From contig NZ_CADEPK010000001.1 of NCBI RefSeq assembly GCF_902829255.1, positions 1 to 64,000 on the forward strand: DNA of 64,000 nucleotides. Reading direction: 5' to 3'. Below the pieces are notes generated by a model that saw only the letters and a program-made list of their open reading frames with translations, did no database searches and had not been told where the DNA came from. This DNA comes from Metabacillus niabensis (GTDB taxonomy: Bacteria; Bacillota; Bacilli; Bacillales; Bacillaceae). Positions 38,385 to 62,534 of this stretch are shown here, one piece after another. Within the stretch, counting starts at the first letter, position 1. Each line of letters starts with the position of its first letter. Made by a program: the position numbers and the translations under genes.

Positions 38385-38461
38385 TGGCGGTCCGGACGGG
38401 ACTCGAACCCGCGACCTCCTGCGTGACAGGCAGGCATTCTAACCAACTGAACTACCGGACC
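38385..38461 (-). tRNA. tRNA-Asp (GTC)
   Basis: A 77-nt tRNA on the minus strand. The acceptor arm GGTCCGG pairs with CCGGACC, with discriminator G and an encoded CCA. The anticodon loop CTGTCAC gives GTC for aspartate, and the T loop is GGTTCGAGTCC. It follows tRNA-fMet by 17 nt in the rRNA operon remnant. Confidence 0.97.
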
Positions 38462-38478
38462 ATTTCATTAACTTAAAT

Positions 38479-38555
<77 letters not shown>

Positions 38556-38575
38556 ACGATAATATAAAGTTTTTA

Positions 38576-38691
<116 letters not shown>

Positions 38692-42283: not shown

Positions 42284-42308
42284 AAAAAGAGCAATGAACA
42301 ACATGCTC
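42284..42308 (-). terminator. Possible yunB terminator
   Basis: GAGCA and TGCTC bracket a short loop, followed by a T tract on the minus strand. The stem is only 5 bp, so this is weak. Confidence 0.4.
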
Positions 42309-42309
42309 A

Positions 42310-43059
42310 TTACTCCTCTAATCCAGGTATGTCAACGTCCGGAAGATTTCCTTCAGAACCACCACCACCATGATATTGCGGAACATCTCCACGTTCTGAG
42401 AAATTTACGATTGGGATCGTATTCGTTGCTTTTATCACTTCTGTTGCAAATGGAATGACTACTTGAACACTTACCTCTACGTATAAAGATATTTCGTGTA
42501 CTCCACCATTAATACCATATTCCTTTGTCTCACTTTTTGTATCAACAAATACATCGCCAATTAAATAATATTGAATCGGAATTTCCGGTCCTAAGGAACT
42601 TAGTAACGAGTTATTCGTAATTACCCCTAATGGAATCCCATACACAATTCCATCAGCCAACTCTGTATTTGAAGTTTTACTATGGAAATTATTCCTCTCA
42701 ATTTGACTTAGCTTCTCCGTAATATTATCCTGAACTCTTTTTTTTGCTGCGTGTACTGCACGCTGATTTAAGTTAACTGATGTGACATTTCCATTACTAT
42801 TTGTTGTAATATCAACCAGATTTTCTTGCTCAGCCTCTGTTAGCACTTCTTTTTCTACCGCATTATGTATGATAGTAGTTGCAACCTTATTTGCTTCAAA
42901 CTTTGCTATCCTCATTAAAGTAGCTTCCACCTGAACATTAACAATCCAAAAGCTTACTGCCGTTAATATAATAAAAATAACTAACGTTAATAAGAGAACA
43001 TAACGAAAAGGTAATGGCCCTCGACGGCGGCGTACACTTCTACCGCGAAATTTAGGCAA
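42310..43059 (-). CDS. yunB: Sporulation protein YunB
   Basis: A 249-residue membrane-anchored protein of the YunB family, needed for normal sporulation in B. subtilis and of unknown mechanism. It has a basic N-terminus (RGRSVRRRRG), one helix (FRYVLLLTLVIFIILTAVSFWIV) and a large extracytoplasmic domain (EANKVATTIIHNAV, IPLGVITNNSLLSSLGPEIPI). Start is TTG at 43059, with AAGGGGGG 7 nt upstream. That ribosome binding site lies inside one arm of a 17-bp perfect inverted repeat, see 43062-43106. It is downstream of yunC. Confidence 0.88.
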   Translation of the reverse strand: MPKFRGRSVRRRRGPLPFRYVLLLTLVIFIILTAVSFWIVNVQVEATLMRIAKFEANKVATTIIHNAVEKEVLTEAEQENLVDITTNSNGNVTSVNLNQRAVHAAKKRVQDNITEKLSQIERNNFHSKTSNTELADGIVYGIPLGVITNNSLLSSLGPEIPIQYYLIGDVFVDTKSETKEYGINGGVHEISLYVEVSVQVVIPFATEVIKATNTIPIVNFSERGDVPQYHGGGGSEGNLPDVDIPGLEE

Positions 43060-43061
43060 AA

Positions 43062-43106
43062 TACATCCCCCCTTACAACATGTTTATGCTTGTAAGGGGG
43101 GATGTA
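43062..43106 (-). promoter_or_regulatory. 17-bp inverted repeat that can sequester the yunB ribosome binding site
   Basis: The arms at 43062-43078 and 43090-43106 are perfectly complementary with an 11-nt loop. On the yunB transcript the 3' arm contains the AAGGGGGG Shine-Dalgarno sequence, which would be paired. No T tract follows the stem on the minus strand, so it does not look like a terminator. Confidence 0.75.
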
Positions 43107-43164
43107 CGCATCTTTTTTATCTGATTCATGTTTGGTTATTTAACCGTTGTGTAAATGGACAACT

Positions 43165-43467
43165 TTATATCATTTTAAGCAAAGCATCTTTTCCTGCCAT
43201 TCCAACTTCAATTCCGTACTTTTCAGCCTCATATGTTACTGATTCTAACGGTGCTTCAAGCAATTGTTCAATCGTTCTAACACCGACTGCTCTTCCAGCA
43301 ATAATCCCACGATCCTTCAGTTTTTCATTTAATAAACCGACATCTAGAGCTCCACACATGATATACCCTTTTTCATTCGTTATCGCCATAAAATTTGTTT
43401 TTGGTAAAGCAATTGTAATCGCTGTAAACTGATTCCCGTCTATAACAATTGGCGTCATCGTTACCAT
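43165..43467 (-). CDS. yunC: DUF1805 protein YunC
   Basis: A 100-residue cytosolic protein of the DUF1805/YunC family; function unknown. The core ALPKTNFMAITNEKGYIMCGALDVGLLNEKLKDRGI and IAGRAVGVRTIEQLLEAPLESVT is very conserved. The start is the ATG at 43467, with AAAGGAGTG about 9 nt upstream, although a frame continues to 43488. It lies between yunD and yunB, in the same order as the B. subtilis yun block. Confidence 0.88.
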   Translation of the reverse strand: MVTMTPIVIDGNQFTAITIALPKTNFMAITNEKGYIMCGALDVGLLNEKLKDRGIIAGRAVGVRTIEQLLEAPLESVTYEAEKYGIEVGMAGKDALLKMI

Positions 43468-43542
43468 ATGCTCATACACTCCTTTCATTACTATATCTCT
43501 ATGAGTGCATAAGTAATACGTGTAGATAAAACGCCTATGAAA

Positions 43543-44937
43543 TTAAGGTTTTTTTGCCAATTGCCATGCTAATAAATCTCTCAATAATTCTGGCATATAA
43601 AATATTTTTTCCTTCGCATGGCTTATTGCAGGATATAGTGGCCCTAACGTAAACATATCCACGGTTGCCACTGCATATGTTTTTTCGGGATTGATCGGTT
43701 CTCCATGAACAAGTACTTCCGTAACATGCTGTTTCCCATCTTCTAATGTATCAGTTTGGATATCAATTCCCTCGTAAACCATTCTTCCCATTACTTTCCC
43801 TCTAAATCCTAACCCTTTTAATTGAAGATGCTCCATTTTTTCCTCTCTAGCTTGAACAATAACCTCTTTCAACACATCTCCCTTTAAATAAACCTTACAT
43901 GGATTAATTGGGTGTGGACAAATTCGATGCAAGTCCTTCTTTGTTATCGGACCTTTCAATAAAGGCTCTAGTAACATTCCTGAATTAACCATAGCCACTT
44001 CACCATCACACCAATCTAATAATGCTTGGACTAAAAGTTGTGGGAAAGGGGACTCTCGAAACCAATCAAGCGGCAAATCTTTATCGATAACAGCAACAAC
44101 TTCTGATAAGGTTGATTCACTTTTTACCATTTCCTTATTCAGCCATGATGCAGTTTCTTCGCAATACTCGACTTCCTCTTCCATCGGATAGACTTCAGCC
44201 TCACGTTGTACAATCTCTTTTTTGTGTGGATTGATTGTAAATGAGATATGACCGATATATTGTCCGTATTTACCAGCACCAGCAAGTAATGTACCATTCA
44301 TTTCCTTCCCTTTTTGTAAAACATGATGTGTATGACCACCGATAATAATATCAATTTCTGGAAATTCTTTTGCGATGATTTCGTCATCAGTAATACCTAA
44401 ATGAGAGAGGAGAATGATCAGATCAGCCTGATCTTTTACTTGATTGACCGTTTCTAATAAGCTCTGAAATGGGTCTTTTATTTGCCAGCCAAGTAACTCA
44501 TAAAACTTCTCATAAAAAACCGTCACACCTAGGACAGCTATGCTCATACCATTTTCCAGATTCATCATTTGATAAGGAACAACCCATGACGGCCGCTCCC
44601 CTAACTCAGTGTAAAGATTCGATAATACGATAGGAAATGTTGCATGATCATACAATGTATCTAAATCATCATGGGCAAACGTAATTCCTTCATTATTGCC
44701 TATTGTCGCTGCATCATAATGAAGACGATTTAATAATTCGACATTTGCCTTCCCATGAGTCGCCTCTGTTATTGGATGAAATCTATCAGCATGATCTCCG
44801 ATATCAAAGAGAAGCATCGTTTCATTATTTTGCTTATGTATGTCTCTCTTCTTATTTAAGAAATGGGCAATTTTAGGCCAATTTTCAAAATGACTATGTA
44901 AATCATTCGTATGATATAGGTGAATGGTTTCTAGCAT
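43543..44937 (-). CDS. yunD: Metallophosphoesterase/5'-nucleotidase family protein YunD
   Basis: A 464-residue protein with an N-terminal calcineurin-type phosphatase domain (HTNDLHSHFENW, LLFDIGDHADRF, GNNEG, IIIGGHTHH) and a C-terminal 5'-nucleotidase domain (GEVAMVNSGMLL, TYAVATVDMF). Metal ligands are intact. There is no clear signal peptide, unlike extracellular nucleotidases, so it may act in the cytosol on a nucleotide or phosphoester that is not known. Start at 44937 with a GGGGAG site upstream. It lies between yunE and yunC. Confidence 0.88.
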   Translation of the reverse strand: MLETIHLYHTNDLHSHFENWPKIAHFLNKKRDIHKQNNETMLLFDIGDHADRFHPITEATHGKANVELLNRLHYDAATIGNNEGITFAHDDLDTLYDHATFPIVLSNLYTELGERPSWVVPYQMMNLENGMSIAVLGVTVFYEKFYELLGWQIKDPFQSLLETVNQVKDQADLIILLSHLGITDDEIIAKEFPEIDIIIGGHTHHVLQKGKEMNGTLLAGAGKYGQYIGHISFTINPHKKEIVQREAEVYPMEEEVEYCEETASWLNKEMVKSESTLSEVVAVIDKDLPLDWFRESPFPQLLVQALLDWCDGEVAMVNSGMLLEPLLKGPITKKDLHRICPHPINPCKVYLKGDVLKEVIVQAREEKMEHLQLKGLGFRGKVMGRMVYEGIDIQTDTLEDGKQHVTEVLVHGEPINPEKTYAVATVDMFTLGPLYPAISHAKEKIFYMPELLRDLLAWQLAKKP

Positions 44938-55773: not shown

Positions 55774-55938
55774 AATAAAGCAAAAAGCCTTTCTGCATGG
55801 GAACAGAAAGGCACAGTAAATTGTCCTTTCTCCCATCTTTCAAAGCAAAAAGCTTTGCGTGAATTGGCACCATTTCAGCAAAAACTGACGGTTGCCGGGC
55901 TTCATAGGGCACTTCCCTCCACCTCTCTTGATAAGAGA
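55774..55938 (-). ncRNA. SAM-I riboswitch (S-box) with terminator
   Basis: On the minus strand the leader begins CTCTTATCAAGAGAGGTGGA, then GGGAAGTGCCC, GAAGCCCGGCAACC and TGGTGCCAATTC, the conserved S-box core. It ends in a terminator with arms AGCCTTTCTGC and CAGAAAGGC plus a T-rich tail. Binding of SAM should stop transcription of metNPQ. Confidence 0.96.
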
Positions 55939-62185: not shown

Positions 62186-62214
62186 TCACACATGTTTATC
62201 ATTATTTTTTGGAA

Positions 62215-62366
62215 GGCTACGTTTTTCCCTTTGTACAAAAAGTTGCCTCTTTGGTTTAAGGAAAAACTTACGGCTGTAACCAACAACCGGGAGGCATCCG
62301 CCGAAATTTCGATAACCTCCATCCTCGTCAACTAAGTTTTTTACGTTCACTTAGTTCAGGCGCTTT
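62215..62366 (-). ncRNA. glmS ribozyme (glucosamine-6-phosphate riboswitch)
   Basis: On the minus strand the leader has AAAGCGCC with the cleavage site after the A, GACGAGGATGGAGGTTATCG, TTCGGCGGATGCCTCCCGG and CTTAAACCAAAGAGGC, the conserved core and P3/P4 elements. Cleavage when glucosamine-6-phosphate is abundant lowers glmS mRNA. The 3' limit is approximate. Confidence 0.95.
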
Positions 62367-62534
62367 AATTATTAATAATAATCTAACCTACTACCCACCT
62401 TTCTATTTACAAAAATACAAATTTAATGATACAACAGAACAAATTACTTCGTCAATGACTTTTCCAACCTAAACATTTTTTGTTAAGAACTCTTAACACA
62501 ATTAACATATGATCATACAAAATAACTTGTTAAT

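Follow-up and report, generated by a model that had tools for sequence, protein, structure and literature searches.

We analyzed the region between yunC and yunB in a stretch of 64,000 nucleotides of Metabacillus niabensis DNA (contig NZ_CADEPK010000001.1, positions 1 to 64,000), which is referred to below as the window. The product of yunB is FisB, a membrane fission protein. The encoded protein scores 183.5 bits against the TIGR02832 model (cut-off = 111.9), its nearest match belongs to a metagenome assembly named Bacillus (99% identity), followed by Metabacillus species, and the available text of PMC8670662 equates FisB with YUNB_BACSU. The following features were identified at this locus, all on the minus strand and given here in the direction of transcription:

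43165..43488, minus strand: yunC (DUF1805), upstream of and co-directional with yunB; a scan for terminators with loops of 3-8 nt found no usual terminator in the yunC-yunB gap
43103..43110, minus strand: putative mother-cell (sigma-E type) -35 element TGCGTACA, proposed from conserved columns
43090..43106, minus strand: 5' arm of the hairpin, TACATCCCCCCTTACAA, located by inverted-repeat search, its pairing kept across genera with mismatches that are mostly G-T
43090..43106, minus strand: the same stretch as DNA, which would also form the end of the putative -35 element plus the -35/-10 spacer
43079..43089, minus strand: loop GCATAAACATG of 11 nt, located by inverted-repeat search and CATA alignment, carrying a -10-like box
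43081..43088, minus strand: putative sigma-E type -10 element CATAAACA, preceded by G, proposed from CATA conservation
43062..43078, minus strand: 3' arm of the hairpin, TTGTAAGGGGGGATGTA, located by inverted-repeat search and RNA folding, including the entire yunB SD
43073..43076, minus strand: predicted transcription start zone, within the 3' arm, placed by its distance from the -10 element
43067..43074, minus strand: yunB/fisB Shine-Dalgarno sequence (SD), AAGGGGGG, wholly within the 3' arm
42310..43059, minus strand: yunB (fisB), 249 amino acids, TTG start, assigned by TIGR02832

The initial annotation had described a perfect 17-bp stem that buries the yunB SD, and this description is borne out: the two arms (43062-43078 and 43090-43106) are complementary at all 17 positions, lie 11 nt apart and form the sole pair returned by an inverted-repeat search of positions 42500-43600. 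Its placement of the TTG codon 3 nt beyond the stem is right if the first base of the start codon is counted, and as a gap it is too long, since only 2 nt separate the stem from the codon (43059-43057). The stem is G+C-rich and gains one extra G-U pair as RNA; an 86-nt RNA spanning the hairpin has a folding energy of -35.1 kcal/mol (z = -6.4; equally stable shuffles, 0/200), and a 156-nt RNA gives z = -4.6. We expressed the masking of the SD as the energy needed to open its 6-nt core in an RNA made of 75 nt of leader and 24 nt of gene, and this cost is 24.7 kcal/mol for the long RNA of the window, against 6.7 kcal/mol for shuffles. Five matches to Rfam 15 at the gathering score were found in the window and none at the yunB hairpin. 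Elsewhere on the minus strand, the window holds a glmS ribozyme (62211-62375), a SAM riboswitch (55830-55937), a 5S rRNA with tRNA-Met and tRNA-Asp (38385-38690), and a terminator-like hairpin with a T tail (42285-42319) that overlaps the yunB stop codon.

Comparative analyses were based on 80 yunB upstream regions taken from among the matches listed, ordered by score. One yunB per genus from these 80, plus loci L009, L031 and L036, gave a set of 63 genera of the order to which the window belongs, which is part of the genera with yunB (matches in at least 110 of 117 genera). A second set comprised 25 genera of the same phylum outside this order, drawn from the best 30 loci after removal of genus repeats (L223, L224, L242 and L248) and of a Bacillus (L229). 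Start codons were picked by SD strength with a near-identical rule in yunB and in the control genes, a choice that could favor G-rich starts in both. Shuffled leaders numbered 100 per row for the 63- and 25-genus sets, 50 for spoIVA, ylbJ and spoIID, 40 for spoIIIAA and 40 or 20 for sigG; 29 of the 30 spoIID leaders were usable (L335 lacks a start), as were 29 of 30 for spoIIIAA, with a wider start search (L423 lacks a start).

The cost of opening the yunB SD has a median of 13.3 kcal/mol over the 63 genera of the order, against 5.7 kcal/mol for shuffled leaders, and the mask reaches p ≤ 0.05 in 49 of them, 36 of the 63 standing at the floor set by 100 shuffles. The 25 genera elsewhere in the phylum show a smaller difference (8.3 vs. 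5.0 kcal/mol), with p ≤ 0.05 in 12. By this shuffle test, a significant mask is absent in 14/63 genera of the order and in 13/25 outside it. A cruder duplex test with fixed segment borders, which cut close arms, gave p ≤ 0.05 in 45/63 and 10/25 genera, respectively. Costs of at least 10 kcal/mol were found for yunB in 50/63 genera of the order and 9/25 outside; among the controls, no leader of spoIVA (0/30), ylbJ (0/30) or spoIIIAA (0/29) reached this value, while 6/29 spoIID leaders and 26/30 sigG leaders did (24/30 for sigG with 120 nt of leader rather than 75). The shuffle test gave p ≤ 0.05 in 0/30, 0/30, 1/29, 8/29 and 26/30 leaders of spoIVA, ylbJ, spoIIIAA, spoIID and sigG, respectively. 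The low values of spoIVA, ylbJ and spoIIIAA indicate that a lock on the SD is not a general property of sporulation leaders, and the high value of sigG indicates that the measure recovers a case already published.

When 30 yunB upstream regions were inspected by eye, including that of the window and one cut at a contig end (L024), they presented a C-rich 5' arm, a GCATA motif and a G-rich SD arm. In the closest relative, the CCCCCC of the window is replaced by CCCTCC, which faces GGGGGG with one U-G pair. Other genera have arms that changed jointly, as in Neobacillus (L122; TCACCCC/GGGGTGA), L174 (AGCCCC/GGGGCT) and L184 (CCGTTCTTCTTTGC/GCAAAGGAGGACGG, with two U-G pairs). Outside the order, L222 (AACACCTC/GAGGTGTT) and L233 (CCCCTCCT/AGGAGGGG) likewise carry a CATA box between their arms. 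One genome of the subtilis group (G031) has what appear to be two yunB copies (L030 and L143), with the element on both.

A MAFFT alignment set the stem out of register, and arm swaps and mismatch counts were used instead of column-wise covariation; loci without CATA in place (L192 in the order; L230, L238, L243, L246 and L247 outside it) were left out of these counts and of the CATA alignment. When arms were swapped between the 62 remaining genera of the order, the mean pairing energy rose from -20.8 kcal/mol (native) to -16.7 kcal/mol (z = -10.5; 0/2000 permutations as good), and the 20 genera outside gave z = -7.3 (0/2000); since the permutation does not keep relatedness, these z values are not exact probabilities. 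Paired changes in related genomes, which had been suggested as a check on the stem, are thus present both as joint arm changes and in the swap test. Helices were scored by Watson-Crick matches with every mismatch penalized alike, and the best helices contain 43 G-T, 0 A-C and 19 other mismatches in the order and 4 G-T, 0 A-C and 4 others outside it. The sense RNA is more stable than the antisense RNA in 54/62 genera and less stable in 3.

These counts bear on the idea that the conserved object is a DNA palindrome lying over a promoter and bound by a dimeric regulator. A perfect palindrome does overlap the putative promoter, but the arm sequences vary among genera while the pairing stays, and a DNA palindrome gives no reason to accept G-T and refuse A-C (on the opposite strand the roles are reversed). 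Symmetry without strand preference was therefore rejected, 43 G-T standing against 0 A-C, and we regard an operator of this type as scarcely credible. The same imbalance identifies the conserved thing as pairing in the yunB-sense RNA. Taken together, the genus comparisons demonstrate that yunB-sense RNA whose start lies upstream of the 5' arm is able to bury the fisB SD in a hairpin and that this pairing is under selection. In the simplest reading, an RNA with both arms does exist and has some importance.

A second conserved feature lies between the arms. A CATA motif is found there, 18-50 nt before the start codon, in 62/63 genera of the order, and in some genera this box overlaps the inner stem. 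When the sequences are aligned on CATA, a G precedes it in 59/62 genera, an A stands at +5 in 55/62, and T and A are frequent at -18 (46/62) and -17 (48/62), the latter pair occurring together in 37/62; columns -20, -19, -16 and -15 are close to random, and the columns upstream of the 5' arm, as far as -32, are merely A/T-rich. In the window, this TA occupies positions 43106-43105, 16 nt before CATA. In the genera beyond the order, the box takes the form CATAnnnT, with the T in 18/20; here A and C prevail at -19 and -18 (14/20 and 13/20), and the TA of the order was not seen.

The sigma-E consensus letters served for comparison. The -10 element of the window, CATAAACA, has A in place of the T of the sigma-E box and, like most of the order, has its T shifted downstream by one base. 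The -35 element matches only weakly, the exactly placed TA found in 37/62 genera falling to 5/14 among those with a weak mask. The CATA box, by comparison, is retained in all 14 genera of the order in which the mask is not significant, which argues that it is there for more than a role in the loop. The described layout of sigma-E promoters comprises an 8-nt -35 element and a 10-nt -10 element with 12 ± 1 nt between them (PMC517825, available text). On these grounds, the stretch running from the -35 element to the loop looks like a mother-cell promoter of sigma-E type. Sigma-E is the most likely candidate, although the similar sigma-K may fit the sequence as well, since the -35 columns differ outside the order: the A/C seen there looks like the AC of the sigma-K -35 element (PMC3789822, available text) or simply belongs to the anti-SD sequence. 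In the available text of the same source, the yunB gene of Clostridioides difficile (CD0782) is listed in the sigma-E regulon, with a ratio of 0.32 in a sigE mutant and an unmapped promoter.

The position of the box has a direct consequence for the SD. At the usual distance between a -10 element and the start of transcription, RNA synthesis would begin some 14 nt downstream of the C in CATA, within the 3' arm. For RNA starting at CATA+13, the median cost of opening the SD over the order is 2.3 kcal/mol, and for the predicted short RNA of the window it is 2.4 kcal/mol. The initial annotation placed the buried SD in the sporulation mRNA of yunB, which is unlikely given that a start inside the 3' arm would leave the SD open; it had itself named transcription from within the stem as a finding that would speak against it, and the predicted start (43073-43076) falls there.

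Taking into account that an SD masked in the long RNA and a promoter inside the hairpin fit best together if the long RNA is unwanted, we consider it probable that the promoter of fisB is built into a translation lock, in which the hairpin blocks RNA reading through from yunC and spares RNA made at the inner promoter. This would be a mother-cell promoter, most likely of sigma-E type, with its -35 element and spacer within and beside the 5' arm and with the -10 element in the loop; the transcript would start within the 3' arm, lack the 5' arm and keep its SD open; and, outside sporulation, the lock would prevent RNA that enters from yunC from yielding FisB. Where relatives carry a T-rich stretch behind the SD, the hairpin may additionally terminate part of the read-through RNA. 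The gene arrangement is consistent with this proposal, as yunC lies upstream and co-directional in 71/80 named loci, 66 of which have it within 500 nt. Growing cells have been made to express GFP-FisB (PMC8274934, available text), so the protein is not obviously deadly when made early. If the lock operates as proposed, promoter choice would govern FisB synthesis at the level of transcription and again at that of translation, and none would come from stray read-through RNA.

The view of the hairpin as post-transcriptional control of a sporulation gene therefore stands insofar as an SD mask acting in RNA is under selection, and gives way as to its target, which is more likely the read-through RNA. 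A regulated leader, in which the fisB mRNA starts upstream and a factor (a protein, small RNA, RNase or temperature) opens the hairpin, would account for the fully paired SD and the conserved loop sequence. We nevertheless find it very improbable: the box matches a sporulation -10 element and keeps a constant spacing to a -35-like TA, the columns upstream of the 5' arm are of the plain A/T-rich kind noted above, no Rfam family reaches its threshold at the hairpin, and a stem of about -35 kcal/mol hardly melts unaided. With a start inside the 3' arm, none of these melting agents is needed.

The main rival to the read-through lock is termination, that is, that the hairpin is chiefly the intrinsic terminator of yunC laid over the fisB promoter and SD, with the SD pairing as a by-product. 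At least 5 T occur in the 8 nt after the SD in 45/63 genera of the order, that of the window being one of them, and this count is reached by only 3/30 spoIVA, 1/29 ylbJ, 1/29 spoIID and 0/30 sigG leaders; the mean number of T in the 8 nt between SD and start is 5.3 for yunB of the order (L141-L220) and 2.0 to 3.4 for four other sporulation genes. Another usual terminator, within 120 nt upstream of the 5' arm, was found in just 12/79 named loci, and pairing in RNA with tolerance of G-U suits a terminator equally well. Against this, the stem of the window continues through AUGUA and is followed only by UUUUG, the loop exceeds the usual length, 10 of the 18 genera of the order with fewer than 5 T keep a mask at p ≤ 0.05, and only 5/25 genera outside the order have the T stretch, a mask at p ≤ 0.05 being found in 8 of the 20 that lack it. 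The terminator scan made no call at the yunB hairpin, and its silence is no evidence, because it covers loops of 3-8 nt and is blind to one of 11 nt. We regard termination as the main function of the hairpin as rather unlikely; lock or terminator, the element would shield fisB from yunC. The 12 loci that have another terminator keep the element all the same, suggesting that read-through from yunC may not be its sole reason. It should be noted that the stem had been described as lacking a T tail, which is accurate for what follows it (just TTTTG) and not for the count from the SD, which gives 5 T in 8 nt (ATGTATTT), mostly inside the stem; given the T-rich stretch in 45/63 genera, termination may add to the block. 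The "fisB terminator hairpins" in the available text of PMC8060035 serve a convergent-transcription test and probably concern the 3' end of fisB.

We also searched the genome for further copies of the element. Besides the two arms themselves, the best of 14 further matches to the arm has 2 mismatches, so no close copy was found. Pairs of CCTCC and GGAGG number 37 forward and 37 reverse, exactly as in a reversed-pattern control (37 and 37), and a genome-wide class defined by this pattern was rejected. GCATA followed by AAGGRGG gave 4 + 4 matches, against 5 + 8 for the control, and inspection of these eight loci by eye (seven with flanks, L363 without) found the mask at the yunB locus only. A single case, L347 (G000:C30:25398-25436), has the look of the yunB element, with a hairpin of CCTCC, CATATGTT and GGAGG and a T6 tail before an ORF of about 50 amino acids; the 74-amino-acid gene that precedes it is presumably a DUF1128 gene.

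The proposed arrangement has parallels in other systems. Intrinsic terminators share with it the G+C-rich stem and, in many relatives, the T-rich stretch, and differ in that the fisB hairpin has a long loop, contains the SD and the putative promoter, and is followed in the window by only TTTTG. The transposase gene of IS10/Tn10 is protected from outside promoters by an inner promoter and a stem that hides the SD in read-through RNA; both elements would recur here, in a developmental gene rather than a mobile element. In phage T4, a long early RNA of gene e hides the SD and a late promoter starts inside the stem, so that the hiding of the SD in a long RNA and, by prediction, the internal start are shared, whereas gene and timing are those of a phage. 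The closest parallel is sigG (spoIIIG) of Bacillus subtilis, for which, in the available text of PMC5942855 (with its references 9 and 52, Sun 1991 and Masuda 1988), a large hairpin was proposed to block translation of RNA reading through from the upstream spoIIG promoter, whereas transcripts of sigG's own promoter are unable to form it.

The two genes have almost the same median cost of opening the SD (13.4 kcal/mol for sigG, 13.3 kcal/mol for yunB), and in both the RNA from the own promoter escapes the hairpin of the read-through RNA, on the fisB side as a prediction. They differ in that the sigG promoter is a forespore promoter, whereas that of fisB seems to be a mother-cell promoter with its -10 box between the arms; the fisB hairpin is shorter and often has a T-rich stretch, and sigG has a second, small hairpin at the ribosome binding site in its own mRNA (PMC5942855, available text). 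The logic of a lock on read-through RNA has thus been proposed before, and fisB is most likely a further case of the sigG kind. A search of open-access titles and abstracts, with subscription journals outside its scope, found no paper on the fisB hairpin. Among the spoIID upstream regions (L311-L340), the SD pairs in some genera with a stretch before or at the CATA box, as in L316 (CCAAGCCC/GGGCTTGG), beside a TTGTCC motif that we take to resemble a SpoIIID site.

Finally, it is possible, if less than probable, that a rule holds across the phylum, by which developmental promoters carry a complement of the SD in their -35/-10 spacer, with fisB, sigG and perhaps spoIID in some genera as members. 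One short DNA stretch would then serve as promoter, translation lock and often terminator, so that only RNA made with the right sigma factor would be translatable. If true, this arrangement would have persisted for a very long time, with arm sequences that differ considerably between the order and the genera beyond it, and it could be sought in other developmental genes.
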